Positions 1 through 8,931 of a stretch of DNA of 64,000 bases are shown here, in pieces (within the stretch, counting starts at the first letter, position 1; each line of letters begins with the position of its first letter). The stretch comes from Roseateles sp. GTDB taxonomy: Bacteria; Pseudomonadota; Gammaproteobacteria; Burkholderiales; Burkholderiaceae_C. The stretch is taken from positions 1 through 64,000 of the forward strand of contig JAEUPJ010000007.1 of assembly GCA_016790285.1 (NCBI GenBank), written 5' to 3'. Under the pieces are notes generated by a model that was not told where the DNA came from, ran no database searches, and was given only the letters and a program-made list of their open reading frames with translations. Position numbers and translations under genes: made by a program.

Positions 1-141
1 TGCAACACGCCAGCCGCCTGATCGGCGACTGGATCCACTTCTACAACCACCGGCGCCCGCACCAGGCGCTGAACATGAAGACCCCCGCTGAGGCATTCGC
101 GTTAGCGGCCTGACCTGTGCAGGTTCTGCTGGGTCAATACA
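1..141 (+). mobile_element. 3' end of an IS3-family insertion sequence
   Basis: The window opens inside an insertion sequence. The transposase tail ends at 113, and the element seems to end near 141, in a terminal stretch reading TGTATTGACCCAGC on the minus strand. Immediately beyond it a conserved ImmA/IrrE reading frame resumes on the minus strand, which places the insertion junction at about 141/142. The other end lies outside the window, so no target duplication could be checked. Family assignment rests on the transposase tail; the exact IS name is not recognised. Confidence 0.75.
3..113 (+). CDS. IS3-family transposase OrfB, C-terminal fragment
   Basis: Partial gene whose start lies before the window. 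The 36 visible residues contain HFYNHRRPHQALNMKTPAE, the typical end of an IS3-family DDE integrase (rve) domain with the Y-N-x(2)-R-P-H-x(2)-L signature. The stop is TGA at 111-113. It carries out transposition of the insertion sequence that interrupts the neighbouring ImmA/IrrE gene. Whether the upstream part is intact cannot be seen. Confidence 0.85.
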   Translation, partial: QHASRLIGDWIHFYNHRRPHQALNMKTPAEAFALAA

Positions 142-410
142 GGGCCGTGTTCGTCGTTATAGACAATTCGCCTGCGCCGACCTTCAAAAAAGGTGAATGC
201 AGAGACCTTCTTGTAGATCTCCGCAACGTCGATGGAGTCTTTCGGTTGCTTCGCGGCTTCGAGGAATTGGCTGAGAGACCAGTAGGGGATGTGGAGGTGC
301 CGCGCCAGTGCGTCCATATCCATGGGATCGAGCTGCCCCATCCCCATCTCCGCTCGAACATCCTGAACCAGGCGCTCGGCGTAGGTCTTGAATCCGCGAA
401 CCAGCTTCAT
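142..410 (-). pseudogene. ImmA/IrrE-family metallopeptidase, truncated by IS
   Basis: The ATG at 408-410 overlaps the stop of the XRE gene (ATGA), so the two were one operon. About 89 native residues remain: an N-terminal helix region with VRAEMGMGQLDPMDMDALA and a strand region ending RRRRIVYNDEHGP. This matches the start of ImmA/IrrE peptidases. The HExxH zinc motif normally follows within about 30 residues, but here the frame runs into IS sequence and stops at 102-104 after 102 codons. The protein therefore lacks its active site and should be inactive. In this family the peptidase relieves repression by cleaving or antagonising the paired XRE repressor. Loss would be expected to lock the switch, which is an inference. 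Confidence 0.75.
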
Positions 411-787
411 TCCGACGGAGCGTCCCCAGGGGAACCCTTTTTTAGCGTGTTGTAGGCGGTTTCAACGATGGCCTCGAGCTGTCGTCGGGCTCCGGGACTA
501 AGGGCTGCATCCTGGCGAAAGAGCAGCGCTACTTGTTCAAGGGTCTGACCAGCCGCCGGAGTCTGGAACTGGCCGGCCACGTAGTTGGCGGGATTGATGC
601 CCGCCCAAGCGGACAAGGCGGCCATGCTGGAAGCGTCGGGTTTACGGCCCTGCCCCATCCGCGTCAGTGTGGTCTGGCTTACTCCGGTGGCCACGCTCAC
701 TTCCTTCCAAGTCGCTCTGCGTTGGTCACGCGTTCTTTCAAGTGCCGCATAAAACCCTTCTGAGTCGAACTCGTGCTTGTTCGTCAT
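407..787 (-). CDS. XRE-family helix-turn-helix repressor
   Basis: A 126-residue protein. The N-terminal helix-turn-helix (about residues 14-60) includes TWKEVSVATGVSQTTLTRM, a classical XRE/Cro fold. The C-terminal helices have no recognised function. I chose the ATG at 785-787 because GAAAGGA lies 8 bases upstream; the ATG two codons earlier would put that site too close. It overlaps the truncated ImmA gene by four bases and diverges from the ubiquitin-like operon across a 169-bp gap rich in AGCAA/TTGCT sites. It is likely a repressor of itself and of the divergent operon. That role is inferred from layout, not shown. Confidence 0.8.
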   Translation of the reverse strand: MTNKHEFDSEGFYAALERTRDQRRATWKEVSVATGVSQTTLTRMGQGRKPDASSMAALSAWAGINPANYVAGQFQTPAAGQTLEQVALLFRQDAALSPGARRQLEAIVETAYNTLKKGSPGDAPSE

Positions 788-828
788 CGGCATCGTCCTT
801 TCGTTACATTTAGCTACAAATTGCGACG

Positions 829-912
829 TAGCAAATAATTGCTTAACAGCAATTGGCGCAGTACAGTTGCTTCGCCTGATTGCTTTATAGCAATTGATAG
901 GCACCTCAGCAA
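829..912 (+). promoter_or_regulatory. Operator cluster: seven AGCAA/TTGCT sites in the divergent gap
   Basis: AGCAA or its complement occurs at 830, 839, 848, 867, 880, 889 and 908. Two pairs form palindromes with four-base A/T spacers: AGCAA-ATAA-TTGCT (830-843) and TTGCT-TTAT-AGCAA (880-893). The stretch is much more AT-rich than its surroundings and lies between the XRE gene and the ubiquitin-like operon. It is a strong candidate for the XRE operator and for overlapping divergent promoters. Exact -35/-10 boxes were not assigned. Confidence 0.6.
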
Positions 913-956
913 CCACTCTGGCATCGACTGTCTCTCTTGCGTTGAAAGGACGCGCC

Positions 957-2051
957 ATGAATCCCAACGAATCCCTGAATGAACGAAACGCCATCCGGGT
1001 GGCTGGTGTGGATCTGAACTTTCACAAGGTGCGCATGCCGGACCGCACACCCACTGGCGCGCAAATCGCGGCCGCAGCGGGCTTCACGCCGAGCCAACAG
1101 CCGACTGTGCTCCAACTGCTGACCGACGGCGGCTTCGAAGATCTCCGCCCCGAGGAGGTCACCGAGCTCGCGGGCGACGACAAGTTCATCGTCGTCGAAA
1201 GCGATCGATCCTTCCGTCTCACCATCGACGGCCGCCGCGTCGACTGGCCCATCGCGCGCATCACTGGCGAGATCGTGCGCAAGCTTGGCAACGTGCCGAG
1301 CGACAAGGACGTGTACTTCGAGCAGCAGGACGTCGCCGACCGGCTCCTGCAGAACGCTGATGTGGTGGATTTGTCCGGCACTGGGGTGGAGTCCTTCTAC
1401 AGCCGCAAGGCGTCCTGGGTGCTGAACGTCCAGGGCGTGAGGCTCGAGGTCCACACGCCGACCATCGTCGTTCGCGATGCACTGGTGATGGCCGGCTTCG
1501 TGCCCGAGGACTGGAAGGTCTATCTGAAGTACGCCAGCCAGGAAAAGCAGGCGGTTGAGCTTACGACCATCGTCGATCTGCGCCAGCCGGGCATCGAGAA
1601 GATCTGGCTGGTCCCGCATGCTGTCGACAATGGCGAGGTCGTCCAGGCTGTCCGCCAAGAGTTTGCCCTCATGGAAGAGGACGAAGCGTTTCTCAACGAA
1701 CGCTTCGCGTTCTGGGAGACCTTCGTGGAAGCAGGCCGCCGATGGCTCGTCATCCACGCCTTCCAAGTGCCTCTCGGCTATCGCGGCCAACGGCGAGTCA
1801 CGCTCGCGCTGGAGGTCCCGCCGAACTACCCGACGGCGCAGGTCGACATGTTCTACGTCTTCCCGGCTCTCAGCCTCAGCTCCGGTGGAGGGATCCCCAA
1901 CACTGAGGCGGTGCAGGCCATCATGGGCCAGCAGTTCCAGCGCTGGTCTCGCCACCGCGGCACTGACTCCACCTGGAAAGCCGACTCGGACAACATCATC
2001 ACGCACCTCGCTCTGGTGGAGTCCGCGCTGCGCAAAGAGGTGGCGCAATGA
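957..2051 (+). CDS. Multi-ubiquitin-like protein fused to a Prok-E2 family E domain
   Basis: A 364-residue protein. The first ~225 residues look like about three tandem ubiquitin-like (multiubiquitin) units, starting near IRVAGVDLNFHKV, FRLTIDGRRVDW and WVLNVQGVRLEVH. The last ~140 residues match prokaryotic E2-like family E: PPNYPTAQVDMFYV, then GGIPNT, then WSRH and a C-terminal helix. No cysteine occurs anywhere in the protein, so the E2-like part cannot form a classical thioester. No C-terminal Gly-Gly is present. I chose the ATG at 957 (Met-Asn-Pro-Asn) after GAAAGGA; an upstream in-frame ATG at 894 lies in the operator region. The stop overlaps the next ATG (ATGA). Comparable operons are known from comparative genomics as bacterial ubiquitin-like conjugation systems. 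Domain limits are approximate. Confidence 0.8.
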   Translation: MNPNESLNERNAIRVAGVDLNFHKVRMPDRTPTGAQIAAAAGFTPSQQPTVLQLLTDGGFEDLRPEEVTELAGDDKFIVVESDRSFRLTIDGRRVDWPIARITGEIVRKLGNVPSDKDVYFEQQDVADRLLQNADVVDLSGTGVESFYSRKASWVLNVQGVRLEVHTPTIVVRDALVMAGFVPEDWKVYLKYASQEKQAVELTTIVDLRQPGIEKIWLVPHAVDNGEVVQAVRQEFALMEEDEAFLNERFAFWETFVEAGRRWLVIHAFQVPLGYRGQRRVTLALEVPPNYPTAQVDMFYVFPALSLSSGGGIPNTEAVQAIMGQQFQRWSRHRGTDSTWKADSDNIITHLALVESALRKEVAQ

Positions 2052-3445
2052 CCTCGGCGCCGATGCTGGCGATGTCCGCTGCGCAGCATGCCTTGCTGCG
2101 CAGCCATCTTTTTCCTGGTGATGAGCTGGAGGCGGCGGCCATCCTTCTCTGCAGCCGCACGCCCGCGCCACGCATGCGGTTCATTGTGCGCGAAATGATC
2201 ATGGTCCCGCATGAGCACTGTCACCGAGAACGGGATCGCCTCACGTGGCCCGGTGATGCGCTCGTCGCTGCGGTTGATCGAGCGGAGAAAGAAAATCTCG
2301 CGCTGGTGCTGACGCACTCGCACCCCGGCGGTCTCTTCGGCTTCTCAGATCTTGACGACCGCAGCGACCGCTTGACGATTGGCAGCTTGCTTCAAGGCTA
2401 CGGGACGTGCCATGCATCAGCCATCATGACGCCCAGCGGCTCGATGGCTGCTCGATGGTATGGGCAGGATCTTGTGCCGAACGACTTCGCTGCGGTAAGC
2501 GTCACCGGGCACGAGCTGCGCTGGTGGTGGCGTGACAACGCCTTTGTGAACCGCCCACTGGCGTTTACCTCCGCCGCCCGAGATGAGCTGGCGCGCCTGT
2601 GTGTTTGCATCATCGGCGTCTCGGGCACGGGCTCCGTTGTGGCCGAGCAGCTTGCTCGAATGGGCTTTGGTCGCGTTCTGTTGATCGACCACGACCGTGT
2701 CGAAAAGAAGAACCTGAACCGGATCCTCAACTCCACGCTGGCACACGCCCAAGCCGAAACGATCAAGGTGGAGGCCATGGCCGACGCGATCACGCTCTAC
2801 CGCGGGTCCGGGGTCGCCGTGCCCCTGGCGAAGTCCATCACGGTCCGAGAGGCCGTGCTGCTCGCCAGCCAGGCGGACATGCTGTTCAGCTGTGTCGACA
2901 CCCTTGACGCTCGGCACATCGCCGACGAGATCGCCGCCTGTTTTTGCCTTCCATTGTTCGATGTGGGTGTCACCATCCCGACCAGAAAGGCGGCGAATGG
3001 CACGCCAGTCATCGCTGATGTGTGCGGGCGCATCGACTACGTCCAGCCCGGTGGGTCCACGCTGCGCGACCGCGGCATCTATTCGCCAGCGTCGTTGAGG
3101 GCCGAATACCTCCGAAGAGTCGCGCCGGACGCACATGCCGACGAAGTTAAAGCGGGCTATCTGAAGGGCGTGAAGGAGGAGGCGCCGTCGGTGATCGCGT
3201 TGAACATGAGGGCGGCTTCGGCTTGCGTGATGGAGCTGATTGCACGCATCTACCCATTCAGGCATGAGCCCAATGCCCTCTTCGCTCGGACTGAGTTCAG
3301 CCTGGCTGCGGGCGAAGAGATGCATACGGCCGAAGCCGCGTTCAATGCCGAATCCAACCCAAAGTTAGGACGAGGGGCTGCTGAGCCTCTTCTAGGGCTG
3401 CCGGCGCTGCGCTTACCTAAGAGCGCGAACGGAGGGGCAGTATGA
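2048..3445 (+). CDS. JAB/JAMM peptidase-E1 (ThiF) fusion
   Basis: A 465-residue two-domain protein. The N-terminal JAB domain has the JAMM zinc motif HSHP at residues 90-93, followed by Ser100 and Asp103; Glu28 is the likely partner glutamate. The C-terminal E1-like domain (from ~183) has the nucleotide loop GVSGTG at 190-195, the acidic LLIDHDRV at 211-218 and KKNLNR at 220-225. Cys326 in ADVCGRIDY is a candidate catalytic cysteine. The predicted roles are to adenylate and transfer the ubiquitin-like modifier and to cleave or trim it. It overlaps both neighbours by four bases (2048-2051 and 3442-3445), implying coupled translation. Fusion of activating and deconjugating activities is known for these operons. 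Substrates are unknown. Confidence 0.85.
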   Translation: MTSAPMLAMSAAQHALLRSHLFPGDELEAAAILLCSRTPAPRMRFIVREMIMVPHEHCHRERDRLTWPGDALVAAVDRAEKENLALVLTHSHPGGLFGFSDLDDRSDRLTIGSLLQGYGTCHASAIMTPSGSMAARWYGQDLVPNDFAAVSVTGHELRWWWRDNAFVNRPLAFTSAARDELARLCVCIIGVSGTGSVVAEQLARMGFGRVLLIDHDRVEKKNLNRILNSTLAHAQAETIKVEAMADAITLYRGSGVAVPLAKSITVREAVLLASQADMLFSCVDTLDARHIADEIAACFCLPLFDVGVTIPTRKAANGTPVIADVCGRIDYVQPGGSTLRDRGIYSPASLRAEYLRRVAPDAHADEVKAGYLKGVKEEAPSVIALNMRAASACVMELIARIYPFRHEPNALFARTEFSLAAGEEMHTAEAAFNAESNPKLGRGAAEPLLGLPALRLPKSANGGAV

Positions 3446-3774
3446 ACTGGCCGCGCTGGGCACGTCGGGCCTGGGATCGCTATGGGCCGGCGCGACGCCT
3501 GCGCAAGATCTCAGGCGATACGCTACCCAATGACCTTCCGTCGCGCGACCTGGTGCTGGCACGGGAGGGCATTGAGAACGTCTGTGTTGGCCTCCGGTGC
3601 CCCTGCGGCTGCGGCTACCCAATACAGCTGGCCACCTTCGATGTCGCGCGCCCGCGCTGGGATGTGGTTGAAGATGAAGAGGGGCGCCCGACTCTTCAGC
3701 CCTCCGTGAACCTACGCCAGGGGTGCCGATCGCATTTTTGGATACGGAAGGGTCGCGTCATTTGGTGTGACTAG
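3442..3774 (+). CDS. DUF6527 zinc-ribbon-like protein
   Basis: A 110-residue protein with a cysteine cluster RCPCGCGYPI in the middle and CRSHFWIRKGRVIWCD at the end, a pattern typical of DUF6527. The paired cysteines suggest a metal-binding knuckle. This family is repeatedly found as the last gene of ubiquitin-like E1/E2/JAB operons, and here it overlaps the E1 gene by four bases. Its biochemical role is not known; a ligase-like or accessory role is only a guess. The first 30 residues are basic and poorly defined. Confidence 0.75.
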   Translation: MNWPRWARRAWDRYGPARRLRKISGDTLPNDLPSRDLVLAREGIENVCVGLRCPCGCGYPIQLATFDVARPRWDVVEDEEGRPTLQPSVNLRQGCRSHFWIRKGRVIWCD

Positions 3775-3799
3775 AGCTCGCCGCCGCTCCCCAGTGGGC

Positions 3800-3823
3800 G
3801 CCGCCGACGCAGTGGCCGGCGGC
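3800..3823 (+). terminator. GC-rich hairpin after the ubiquitin-like operon
   Basis: GCCGCCG (3800-3806) pairs with CGGCGGC (3817-3823) around a 10-base loop, 26 bases after the DUF6527 stop. No T-run follows, so this is at best a weak or factor-assisted terminator. Confidence 0.35.
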
Positions 3824-3843
3824 CAAACTATGTACTCTTATGT

Positions 3844-3862
3844 ATGCATCAAGATGATGCAT
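3844..3862. repeat. 7-bp inverted repeat near the accessory/core junction
   Basis: ATGCATC-AAGAT-GATGCAT is a perfect 7-bp inverted repeat in the AT-rich stretch between the operon and the truncated tdk. It could be an operator or a recombination site; nothing else supports either. The rest of 3775-3944 has no recognisable gene. Confidence 0.4.
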
Positions 3863-3944
3863 TCCCAACGAAGGGAAGCGTTTTCCGCCTAGGCAGACAT
3901 CCACAACCTCGGTTTCTTTGAGCGCTTAGGGGGTAAGAGCCCAC

Positions 3945-4475
3945 GTGAACGCGGGCAAATCCACCGCCCTGCTGCAGGTCGCCCACAACTATGAGGAGCG
4001 CGGCCACCGGGTGCGCATCTTCACGGCGCGGCTGGACGACCGTTACGGGCGAGGCTACGTCACGTCGCGGCTGGGCCCGCAGCGCGAGGTGGAGCAGTTC
4101 GACGGCGACACCGACTTCGTCGCGCTGATGGCGCAGACCCCGGGCATCGCCTGCATCCTGGTCGACGAGGCACAGTTCCTGACCAAGCACCAGGTGCAGC
4201 AACTCCACGAGATGGCGCACCTGCGCAACCTGCCGGCCATCTGCTACGGCCTGCGCACGGATTTCCAGGGCGAACTCTTCCCCGGCTCGGCCACGCTGCT
4301 CGCGCTGGCCGACGAGATGGACGAGATGAAGACCATCTGCGACTGCGGCCGCAAGGCCACCATGAACATGCGGGTGGACGCCAACAACCGCAAGGTCACC
4401 GAGGGCGCGCAGGTGGAGATCGGCGGCAATGCCCGCTACCGGTCGGTCTGCGGCCGGTGCTTTCGCCAAGGATAA
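3945..4475 (+). CDS. tdk: Thymidine kinase, N-terminus replaced
   Basis: A 176-residue reading frame matching bacterial type II thymidine kinase, which phosphorylates thymidine in the salvage pathway. Visible motifs are the P-loop end NAGKSTALL, the DEAQFL Walker B, the CYGLRTDFQGELF lasso region and zinc ligands ICDCGRK and VCGRC. Normal homologues start about ten residues earlier with a first beta strand ending Ser-Ala-Met-Asn-Ala-Gly-Lys. Here homology begins exactly at the GTG (3945) that replaces that Met, and the upstream DNA bears no resemblance to the missing strand. The gene was probably clipped by the event that brought in 1-3944. GTG could still serve as a start, but loss of beta strand 1 probably damages the fold. 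Confidence 0.75.
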   Translation: MNAGKSTALLQVAHNYEERGHRVRIFTARLDDRYGRGYVTSRLGPQREVEQFDGDTDFVALMAQTPGIACILVDEAQFLTKHQVQQLHEMAHLRNLPAICYGLRTDFQGELFPGSATLLALADEMDEMKTICDCGRKATMNMRVDANNRKVTEGAQVEIGGNARYRSVCGRCFRQG

Positions 4476-4652: not shown

Positions 4653-4889
4653 TTATTTGGCTGCAATCTGCGCATCCAGCTCCTTGCAGGAGGGCGAGCA
4701 GACCGGCTGCGACTTGCCGAGCAGCTTCTTGGACTTGAGCATCGCCCGAGGGCGGTGCTTGCCGCAGAGGAAGCACGACATCGTGGCCGCGCCGAAGGAA
4801 GAGGTCGCTGCGAAAGGCGAGCCGGGAGCTTTGGAGCGGTAGCGCAGACCATCCGCTTCGATGGTGGTCTTGGTGGTTTCTTTGGCCAC
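4653..4889 (-). CDS. Small conserved-looking protein with two cysteine pairs
   Basis: 78 residues, basic, not recognised by name. A CFLCGKHRPRAML knuckle and a later CSPSCKELDAQIAAK together give C-x2-C and C-x3-C, suggesting one bound metal ion. The start ATG (4887-4889) follows AGGACCAGC on the minus strand. It stands alone between tdk and an enoyl-CoA hydratase gene, with a terminator hairpin beyond its stop. The cysteine spacing and Lys-rich segment suggest a nucleic-acid or regulator-binding role, but no function is claimed. Confidence 0.65.
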   Translation of the reverse strand: MAKETTKTTIEADGLRYRSKAPGSPFAATSSFGAATMSCFLCGKHRPRAMLKSKKLLGKSQPVCSPSCKELDAQIAAK

Positions 4890-6629: not shown

Positions 6630-8300
6630 ATGTTGCACAACCGCCGTCGCCTCCTGGGCCTGGCCGCCGCCGCCAGCCTCACCGCCGCCCTCACCGCCTG
6701 CTCCACCCCGCCGTCGGCCTCCGGCACGGCAGCAGCAGCGCCGCGGCCCAAGCTGGTCGTTCTCGTGGTCATCGACGGCCTGCCGATGCGCCAGGTGACG
6801 GGCTACCGCGACCAGCTCGCCCCCGACGGCTTCGCGCGCTTCCTGGACCGCGGGCGCTGGTTCGCCGATGCGCACTACGGCCACGGCCACACGGTGACGG
6901 CCGCCGGCCACTCGGTGATGCTCAGCGGCGCCTACCCACAGCGCAGCGGCATCATCAGCAACGAGTGGCGCGACCCCGCCACCGGCGAGCAGGTCTACAA
7001 CACCGGCGACACGGCCTACCGGTACATCGACAGCCCCACCTCGCCGCTGTCGGGCACCAGCCCGCGCAATCTCAAGGTCGAGACCCTGGGCGACGTGCTG
7101 CGCACCGCTTCGCCCACCTCCAAGGTCATCGGCATCTCGGGCAAGGACCGCGGCGCCATCCTGCCGGCTGGCCACAAGGGCACGGCCTACATGTACATGT
7201 CGGAGACCGGCGGCTTCGCCTCCAGCACCTACTACATGCCCGCCCACCCGCAGTGGGTGACCGACTTCAACGCCGCCAAGCCCGCCGACGCCTTCTTCAA
7301 GAAGACCTGGGCGCCGCTGCTGCCGGAGTCGGCCTACGCCCGCTCCGTGCCGGACGGCCAGACCTGGCAGATCGCCAGCGGCAACGGCAACAAGCTGCCG
7401 GCCGTCATCGGCGACAAGATGGACGGCCCCGGCGCGCGTTTCTACGGCAACCTGCTGGCCTCGCCGTTCGGTGACGAGCTCACGCTGGCCTTCGCCCGCG
7501 CGGCCGTCACGAACGAGAAGCTCGGCCAGCGCGGCGTTCAGGACATCCTGTCGGTGAGCCTGTCCAGCCACGACTACATCAACCACGCCTTCGGCCCCGA
7601 GTCGCGCCTGTCGCACGACCACACGCTGCACCTGGACCGCCATCTGCAGGCCTTCTTCCAGTTCCTGGACAAGACGGTCGGCGCGGGCAACTACGTGCTG
7701 GCCCTCACCGCCGACCATGGCTTCACCGACACGCCTGAGTGGGCCGTGACCCAGGGCCGCGACGCCGGCCGCTTCACGAACGGCCCGGCGCTGGCCATCG
7801 TCAACGGCGCGCTGTCGGCCCGCTTCGGTGTGGAGAAGCTCGCCTGGAACTTCTCCGCCTCAGGCCTGCTGCTCAACGAGAAGCTGGCCGCCGACAAGGG
7901 CCTGAAGTTCGCCGACGTGCAGGCCGTGGCGCGCGACGAGCTGCTGAAGCTGCCGGGCGTGGCCGCCGTGTTCACGCGCGAGCAGCTGCTGGGCAGCGAC
8001 ACGGCGACGCCGTTCCTGGAGGCCATGCGCAAGTCCTACGACCCCACGCGCGCAGCCCAGCTGCAGATCGTGCTCAAGCGCGGCTGGATCTTCAGCTACC
8101 GCGCCGGCGGCAGCACGCACGGCAGCCCGTACGACTACGACACCCACGTGCCGCTGCTGTTCTGGGGCCCGGCCTATGTGGGCCAGGGCGAGGTGAAAAC
8201 CCGTGCCGAGGTGGCCGACCTGGCGCCGACCCTGGCTGCAGTGGCGGGCCTGCCCGCACCGGCCCAGGCGCAGGGCCGGGACCTGAAGCTCAAGCCCTGA
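6630..8300 (+). CDS. Alkaline-phosphatase-fold lipoprotein (type I phosphodiesterase/PafA-like)
   Basis: 556 residues. The N-terminus is a lipoprotein signal: basic start, hydrophobic core, lipobox LTAC with Cys24. The mature part shows the alkaline phosphatase superfamily pattern: metal Asp in VVIDGLPM, nucleophile region GHGHTVTAAGHSVMLSG (Thr), HDYINHAFGP, ADHGF and the late THGSPYDYDTHVPLLF. These supply the usual bimetal ligands. It is likely an outer- or inner-membrane-anchored phosphatase or phosphodiesterase facing the periplasm. The ATG at 6630 was chosen because the signal peptide starts there; the open frame extends far upstream only as antisense. It converges with the PAS gene, overlapping by 11 bp. 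Confidence 0.85.
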   Translation: MLHNRRRLLGLAAAASLTAALTACSTPPSASGTAAAAPRPKLVVLVVIDGLPMRQVTGYRDQLAPDGFARFLDRGRWFADAHYGHGHTVTAAGHSVMLSGAYPQRSGIISNEWRDPATGEQVYNTGDTAYRYIDSPTSPLSGTSPRNLKVETLGDVLRTASPTSKVIGISGKDRGAILPAGHKGTAYMYMSETGGFASSTYYMPAHPQWVTDFNAAKPADAFFKKTWAPLLPESAYARSVPDGQTWQIASGNGNKLPAVIGDKMDGPGARFYGNLLASPFGDELTLAFARAAVTNEKLGQRGVQDILSVSLSSHDYINHAFGPESRLSHDHTLHLDRHLQAFFQFLDKTVGAGNYVLALTADHGFTDTPEWAVTQGRDAGRFTNGPALAIVNGALSARFGVEKLAWNFSASGLLLNEKLAADKGLKFADVQAVARDELLKLPGVAAVFTREQLLGSDTATPFLEAMRKSYDPTRAAQLQIVLKRGWIFSYRAGGSTHGSPYDYDTHVPLLFWGPAYVGQGEVKTRAEVADLAPTLAAVAGLPAPAQAQGRDLKLKP

Positions 8301-8931
8301 GCAGGAGCTCCGTGGCCGTCTCGCCCCAGACGGCTTCGGTGAGCACCAGGGCGCCCAGCCGCCGCCCGAGGGCCGCGGCCTGCGCCGGCCCCGTGGCCGG
8401 CAGCATCACCAGCAGTCGGCCGTCGTCCAGCCGCATGCAGCCGTCTTCGCCACGGATGCGCGAGAGCAGCTCGGCCGGGTCGGCCGCGGCGGGCAGCGTG
8501 GCCACCGACAGCGGCCACGCGCGCGGGTCGGCCAGCAGCGCCTGCAGCAGCTCGCGGCCCACCTGGCTCGACAGCAGCTGGCCTGTCAGCGGGCGCGGCC
8601 CGGCCAGGGCGCTGATGTCCACGCCCGTGACGGCCAGGCCGCCGCTGGCCGTGCGCTGCTCCACCCACCACAGGCGCCGGCCGTCGCGCCAGGCCTGCTC
8701 GTAGCCGCGCTGGGCGATGCGGCTGCGCCGCTCGGGGGCGTCCACGGGGCCGATGCCAGCATCGCGGGCCGCCTCGACCAGCTCGCCCCACCCCGGCGCG
8801 GCCTGGGCGTCCAGGCCCCAGGCGTCGCGGTAGGCGGCATTGGCTTGCAGCAGGCGGTCGTCGGCGTCGAACAGGGCCAGCAGCAGCGGGCCGTGGTGCA
8901 GCGTCTGCCACCAGAGGTCGTCTTGGGTCAC
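8290..8931 (-). CDS. PAS-domain protein with a degenerate C-terminal domain
   Basis: 213 residues starting at GTG (8929-8931). The N-terminal ~110 residues resemble a PAS sensor (ALFDADDRLLQANAAYRDAW is the typical start). The C-terminal ~100 residues (residues 120-213, with SRIRGEDGCMRLDDGRLLV and AAALGRRL) look like a shortened GGDEF-like fold without the GGDEF signature. It may be a sensor lacking catalytic output. It stands alone, converging on the phosphatase gene. Function is unknown. Confidence 0.6.
   Translation of the reverse strand: MTQDDLWWQTLHHGPLLLALFDADDRLLQANAAYRDAWGLDAQAAPGWGELVEAARDAGIGPVDAPERRSRIAQRGYEQAWRDGRRLWWVEQRTASGGLAVTGVDISALAGPRPLTGQLLSSQVGRELLQALLADPRAWPLSVATLPAAADPAELLSRIRGEDGCMRLDDGRLLVMLPATGPAQAAALGRRLGALVLTEAVWGETATELLLRA

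Follow-up and report, generated by a model that had tools for sequence, protein, structure and literature searches.

A Bub ubiquitin-like operon beside an XRE repressor gene and a broken ImmA gene, on an apparent Gmt element in Roseateles

How is a bacterial ubiquitin-like conjugation operon switched on, and what carries it from genome to genome? Both questions are raised by the start of contig C51 (JAEUPJ010000007.1) of Roseateles sp. (assembly GCA_016790285.1), where three such genes lie beside a divergent XRE-type repressor gene and part of an ImmA/IrrE-type metallopeptidase gene. The first 64,000 nucleotides of this contig were analysed and are called the window; loci, genomes and contigs are labelled L, G and C, respectively. 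The genes at 957-3774 are securely assigned as a Bub operon, a known kind of system. Overall, we consider it likely that this operon is carried by a gamma-mobile-trio (Gmt) element and repressed by XRE through palindromes, that ImmA would relieve the repression in relatives with an intact pair, and that this route has been cut here. The locus is a new member of a family for which both the operon and its link to helix-turn-helix (HTH)-peptidase pairs are already in print. What we add is the predicted operator, the apparent carrier, the broken switch and a recurrent ImmA-UvrD-nuclease fusion.

The Bub operon and its products

The three genes are open, lie in the same direction on the plus strand and overlap by ATGA at 2048-2051 and 3442-3445, as the original prediction had described. 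Pfam agrees with the identities that it had proposed: multi-ubiquitin/E2-like (Multi_ubiq plus Prok-E2_E), JAB-E1 (Prok-JAB plus ThiF) and DUF6527 (Table 1). In the first product, BubAB, three stretches match Multi_ubiq, and Citrobacter BubA and BubB are matched almost end to end. Since the ubiquitin-like and E2 domains both have relatives with solved structures, the proposal of a ubiquitin-like conjugation operon, with ubiquitin-like folds in its first gene, holds. The view that such operons are known mainly from comparative genomics is outdated, because Citrobacter BubA, BubB and BubCD have been solved (PDB entries 9ea4, 9ea5, 9ea8, 9eae and 9eav, from which we take the Bub names) and the association of Bub with CapW or CapH+CapP has been published (PMC13373217).

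Table 1. Features at the start of the window
Feature	Position	Strand	Basis
Right end of multi-copy insertion sequence (transposase C-terminus, stop 111-113), also contig edge	1-141	+	Six other contig places; rve_3 in other copy
5' half of ImmA/IrrE-type metallopeptidase gene, 89 native codons	142-410	-	Aligned to L049 and L115
XRE-type repressor, 126 amino acids	407-787	-	HTH_31 0.0016 (below cut-off); L049 75% identical
Predicted operator 1, TTGC-N6-GCAA	821-834		Motif scan
Predicted operator 2, TTGC-N6-GCAA	839-852		Motif scan
Predicted operator 3, TTGC-N6-GCAA	880-893		Motif scan
BubAB: three ubiquitin-like domains fused to E2-like domain	957-2051	+	PF14452 (Multi_ubiq) 3e-28; PF14462 (Prok-E2_E) 4.3e-36; PDB 9d59 (solved multi-ubiquitin protein) 1.5e-62; PDB 9eav (Citrobacter BubB) 5.3e-30
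BubCD: JAB peptidase + E1-like adenylating enzyme	2048-3445	+	Pfam Prok-JAB 7e-8, ThiF 2e-21; PDB 9ea4 (Citrobacter BubCD) 1.4e-138
DUF6527 protein (probable BubE position)	3442-3774	+	PF20137 5.7e-22; invariant columns in 61 sequences; AlphaFold2 pLDDT 92
Right end of integrative element	3775-3944		Junction with tdk at 3944/3945
tdk (thymidine kinase) without first ten codons, split by element	3945-4475	+	Sister-genome comparison

For comparison we used 86 Bub loci, made up of 80 with BubCD relatives, L129 and L018-L022. About 83 are distinct (L021/L062 and L022/L059 each denote a single place, and L020/L119 are near-identical), and the 80 were the best of 287 relatives, a non-random sample. 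For BubAB the ATG at 957 was chosen as start, the longest frame beginning at TTG 894; the open reading frame (ORF) has at least 350 amino acids in 74 of the 80 relatives. The joint between its third ubiquitin-like domain and the E2 domain reads DNG|E, which fits where the solved BubA chains end. The pattern [DNE][NDG]G is found at this joint in 56 of the 80 relatives, and NG is kept in 23 of the remaining 24.

The window BubAB contains no cysteine, and W330, S331 and R332 are invariant in all 86 E2 domains. From the alignment, a serine nucleophile is possible in this E2 domain. At least one cysteine occurs in the last 130 BubAB residues of 56 of 85 relatives, which weighs against it, although no cysteine column is conserved to 93%. 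The abstract of Ye et al. is said to describe Bub conjugation via oxyester, not thioester, intermediates; the cysteine-free window BubAB and the invariant S331 would be consistent with such chemistry.

BubCD aligns to Citrobacter BubCD over residues 6-454 of 465. It keeps the JAMM residues of the JAB domain (H90, H92, S100 and D103), as well as D216, R225, K240 and D284 of the E1 domain. The DUF6527 protein has 12 columns that are invariant in 61 sequences, including C53, C55, C57, S88, C95 and H98, and a metal-type motif, C-x3-C-x37-C-x2-H. No solved relative was found for it in PDB by sequence at E values up to 1, and its confident AlphaFold2 model gave no clear match when compared with PDB. 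It probably stands at the place of BubE, which we take to be a serine protease and the DUF6527 protein. Among the PADLOC 2023 models, the E1-E2 models match the second gene only (at least 25 of 29 matches), and BubAB and the DUF6527 gene have none.

With these parts, the ubiquitin-like protein would be released from E2 at their joint by BubE and/or the JAB domain, activated by E1 and handed on to targets by the cysteine-free E2; the JAB domain would take it off again.

The same gene set was described as operon type 6e by Iyer, Burroughs and Aravind in 2006 (PMC1779556). As far as the 6e description goes, the likeness covers one to three ubiquitin-like repeats, an E2/RWD-like domain without catalytic cysteine, a JAB domain N-terminal to E1 in one fusion and a metal-binding-type protein with C-x3-C-x(35-38). 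The second half of that motif is printed as H-x2-C, whereas the window protein has C-x2-H, and the description mentions no regulator. The Citrobacter Bub system shares the domains and their order; it differs in that BubA and BubB form one protein in the window, where the carrier is apparently a Gmt element and ImmA is broken. The Bil operon was considered and rejected, because the passages of PMC11354881 on its CEHH motif require an E2 catalytic cysteine and BubAB lacks any cysteine.

A divergent XRE gene, candidate operators and an interrupted ImmA gene

The XRE and ImmA genes overlap by ATGA and are both divergent from the Bub operon. The XRE start was picked by comparison with L049, a locus from an uncultured betaproteobacterium (the longest frame begins at 994). 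The XRE match to HTH_31 reaches 19.1 bits against a curated cut-off of 27, and its identity to six other Bub-linked XRE proteins is 33-38%. The ImmA frame spans 102-410, with 144-410 as its native part. When aligned to the ImmA of L049 (179 amino acids, HEFAH, PF06114 3.1e-16), it is cut just before HExxH, and the fragment, which has no Pfam match, is without the HExxH half expected of a CapP-type M78 peptidase. What follows is the end of an insertion sequence (IS), about 141 bases that recur at six other contig places with 97-100% identity; a longer copy elsewhere in the genome has an rve_3 transposase domain, and we read the element as IS3-like.

Searching the whole assembly with the C-terminal half of the L049 ImmA gave nothing at E values up to 10 (a search with no positive control), a more distant ImmA used as query did not find the missing half either, and a PF06114 (M78) scan of the assembly gave no match above the Pfam cut-off. 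Near the start of contig C82, a weak M78 fragment with HEFGH (L045, 141-302) belongs to another ImmA-like gene of the host genome.

The divergent pair that had been predicted is real, but its ImmA member (102-410, minus strand) lies outside the predicted interval and is broken by the IS. The switch cannot work as drawn in the Roseateles genome because ImmA has lost its catalytic half. With that half taken by the IS, induction by the ImmA route has probably been lost.

A broken switch on an island in a split tdk could also mean that the whole operon is a decaying remnant with inactive Bub proteins. The patchy distribution points the same way: any BubCD match at 1e-20 is found in five of 20 genomes of the genus, including the Roseateles genome. 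We think this unlikely, as XRE, BubAB, BubCD and DUF6527 are all open and keep the residues that are invariant among relatives. Among the 19 other genus genomes, BubCD is full-length and close in G406 and G409 (65%), distant in G400 (33%) and partial in G407 (60% over 80 residues). BubCD relatives are also sparse more widely: seven of 399 genomes from the order have one at 1e-30 (again including the Roseateles genome), as do 147 of 72,556 plasmid records at 1e-5.

The region between XRE and Bub contains TTGC-N6-GCAA palindromes in seven of the eight loci with a window-type XRE, with 10 sites compared to 0.08 expected from dinucleotide shuffles: three in the window, two in L049 and one each in L115, L019, L094, L112 and L123. 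None was counted in L116, where one copy overlaps the start used. Within 200 bases before the BubAB frame, no site was found in 77 Bub loci without a window-type XRE, a set that contains some duplicates and in which frame starts were taken mechanically. The independent support is below the raw count, since L049 and the window supplied the motif and three of the loci, L019, L094 and L123, are closely related. From their placement, these sites are likely the operator of XRE, and XRE likely represses Bub through them. By binding the three palindromes in the shared promoter region, XRE would keep the operon repressed, and it would probably repress its own divergent gene too.

The XRE-ImmA pair among Bub loci

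The linkage of XRE and ImmA to Bub, which the original prediction proposed looking for in relatives, does recur. Homologues of the window XRE are present in seven of the 86 loci, always divergent from the operon. L049 has an intact orthologous XRE-ImmA-Bub arrangement, with a BubCD 71% identical to that of the window, and in both L049 and L115 XRE is followed by a short ImmA. L094 shows no ImmA in the 450 available bases, and L112 is cut by the contig end. A search with the ImmA fragment matched three of 300 genomes of the order, including the Roseateles genome. One of them, G294, holds L140 (3017-6256), in which an XRE 50% identical to that of the window and an ImmA sharing 38% identity with the L049 protein stand divergent from a different ubiquitin-like operon. 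Here the ubiquitin-like protein and the second gene are separate: the operon encodes a 98-amino-acid Multi_ubiq protein (2.3e-13), a 127-amino-acid protein without Pfam match and a 497-amino-acid ThiF protein that, among solved structures, matches BubCD best (5.3e-26).

In relatives with an intact pair, activated ImmA would cut the repressor, probably triggered by single-stranded DNA after damage or infection. We infer this damage-triggered relief by analogy to CapH+CapP, as treated in passages of PMC13373217, and to PprI-DdrO. This 2026 paper, which gives the systems the name Bub and cites Ye 2026 and Gong 2025 as the primary work, states in those passages that 219 of 544 Bub operons adjoin CapW or CapH+CapP and 59 adjoin CapK+CapS, and that CapP is activated by single-stranded DNA and cleaves CapH. 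An antiphage role may be proposed for the operon; according to the same passages, it is yet to be demonstrated that Bub protects against phage.

One could argue that the regulator is CapH+CapP proper, given that layout and kind are the same (an HTH repressor and an M78 peptidase beside an immune-type operon) and that the HTH and ImmA proteins of L018, whose BubCD is 56% identical to that of the window, form a clearer pair (CapH 4.3e-7, CapP 1.4e-13). We regard this as a tentative option. The window XRE scores 0.038 with the PADLOC capH model and 2.7e-4 with RmrA, and the L049 ImmA 1.2e-4 with capP and 8.2e-7 with RmrA. That ImmA has 179 amino acids, whereas the CapP chain 7t5t has 291 and the L018 protein 307; a PDB search with the L049 ImmA gave no CapP match. 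The window pair differs further in that its ImmA is broken.

The XRE-ImmA pair might also be a mobile-element module that stands beside Bub by chance and controls itself or excision, not the Bub promoter. ImmA-type switches often govern mobile elements, the locus apparently lies on a Gmt element, and the genes that follow this XRE in L019 and L123 are different ones, with no ImmA among them. We find such a coincidence improbable, because XRE is divergent from Bub in every fetched locus with a homologue, operator-like sites occupy the region between them, with none in the 200 bases ahead of BubAB in the 77 loci that lack this XRE, and a related pair precedes the different operon of L140.

Several observations weigh against control of Bub by XRE and ImmA. 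XRE can stand without ImmA, since L019, L116 and L123 have none adjoining it. The weak CapH- and CapP-like scores given above count here too. Three further TTGC-N6-GCAA sites occur in the rest of the window (15058, 20935 and 53673), and L140 has none; by eye, it has a TTAGGAA-N5-TTCCTAA palindrome. No sigma-70-like promoter was found at 700-1000. Finally, some ImmA neighbours are, or may be, parts of a system other than Bub: the PD-Lambda-2_B-like proteins of L050-L054 and L124, and proteins similar to the one of L050 that are encoded in L067, L071 and L079 and by a farther gene in L077 (8e-60 to 6e-35).

To place the window pair among other arrangements, we sorted the neighbours of the 80 loci by hand. 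Two have a window-type XRE with a short ImmA and four a window-type XRE without visible ImmA; 30 have a separate ImmA of about 260-345 amino acids (in two frames in L056), two an HTH-ImmA fusion, 16 an ImmA-UvrD-PD-(D/E)XK fusion, six a PD-Lambda-2_B-like gene, 13 CapK+CapS-like genes and four WYL, with three undetermined. An upstream ImmA-domain candidate is present in the fetched flank of 55 of the 80 loci, 53 of them confirmed by Pfam (M78, 0.001). Across the 86 loci, 64 ORFs match ImmA, one of them downstream (L058). HTH_3 (0.01) was detected in 21 of 35 genes situated between Bub and an ImmA, whether separate or fused (one per locus, from 34 of the 80 loci and L129). In L050-L054 and L124, a PD-Lambda-2_B-like gene (PADLOC 6.1e-154 for L050, the others by similarity) immediately precedes Bub and shares its strand, two systems side by side. 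These loci include those of G406 and G409 (L051 and L054), which have no match to the window XRE.

In the fusion, which has about 1140 amino acids, an ImmA/IrrE peptidase is joined to a UvrD helicase and a PD-(D/E)XK nuclease; its gene lies upstream of Bub operons, near 15 to 16 of the 80. It is found in L021 (3932-7354), L057, L059, L061-L063, L066, L068, L076, L091, L092, L095, L096, L100, L104 and L109, and L102 is cut, with the ImmA part missing. Pfam confirms UvrD and PDDEXK in 15 fusions, and the Bub strand is used in 14 of the 16 loci of the 80 (L095 and L104 are opposite). Word searches by title found no paper on this fusion. We raise as a speculative idea that ImmA is wired to Bub operons in several builds, the fusion coupling DNA-end processing directly to the onset of protein conjugation. 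For the window-type switch, the intact relative L049, the predicted operator and the naturally cut protease offer a direct test of how Bub is switched on.

In rhizobial and sphingomonad Bub loci, other genes lie near XRE (L019:3587-4404, L123:2206-4341 and L116:1992-4215 and 7785-8423). They encode a protein of about 215 amino acids with a weak PD-T4-9_A match (L019), SDH/ClpP-like proteases and a protein of about 410 amino acids without significant Pfam match, which we presume to resemble proteasome-like hydrolases.

The carrier element at tdk

The GC content is 61.7% at 142-3944 compared to 70.9% beyond, and no second copy of 147-3944 was found in the genome. Eight genomes of the same genus match the truncated tdk at 92-95%. 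An exact-string scan of seven sister tdk loci showed in three of them that the frame runs upstream to MAKLFFRYAA. The missing codons are on contig C1 of the Roseateles genome (locus L141), where the similarity to the sisters ends at 4874, placing the presumed left end of the element at C1:4875. When compared with two sister genomes, contigs C1 and C51 meet at the same tdk base in each. Immediately within the left junction (L141:596-6953), we found a spare thymidine kinase of another lineage, 58% identical, together with GmtY (2e-142), GmtZ (5.4e-264) and GmtX (1.6e-61), all above the NCBIfam cut-offs.

The Bub operon is thus most likely the right-hand terminal cargo of a Gmt element inserted in tdk. 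Weighing against this, the middle of the element is unassembled, so that the unity of C1 and C51 rests on the shared tdk base. The joint presence of GmtY, GmtZ and GmtX is as in Gmt elements; insertion in tdk with a spare tdk sets this one apart. Title-level searches for Gmt elements at a tdk site found no paper, nor did a search combining Gmt, tdk and Bub terms. An apparent Gmt carrier that enters tdk and brings a spare copy points to a route by which ubiquitin-like systems may spread.

In Leclercia (L105), a Bub operon accompanied by CapK+CapS-like genes also has relatives of GmtZ and GmtX on its downstream side; a search of 102 stretches, mostly shorter than 14 kb, gave no other Gmt match. 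Related small genes, alike by eye, flank tdk on both sides (window 4653-4889 and L141:74-367, both on the minus strand). The alignment with the sisters also extends over the downstream side, so this pair is probably an old duplication.

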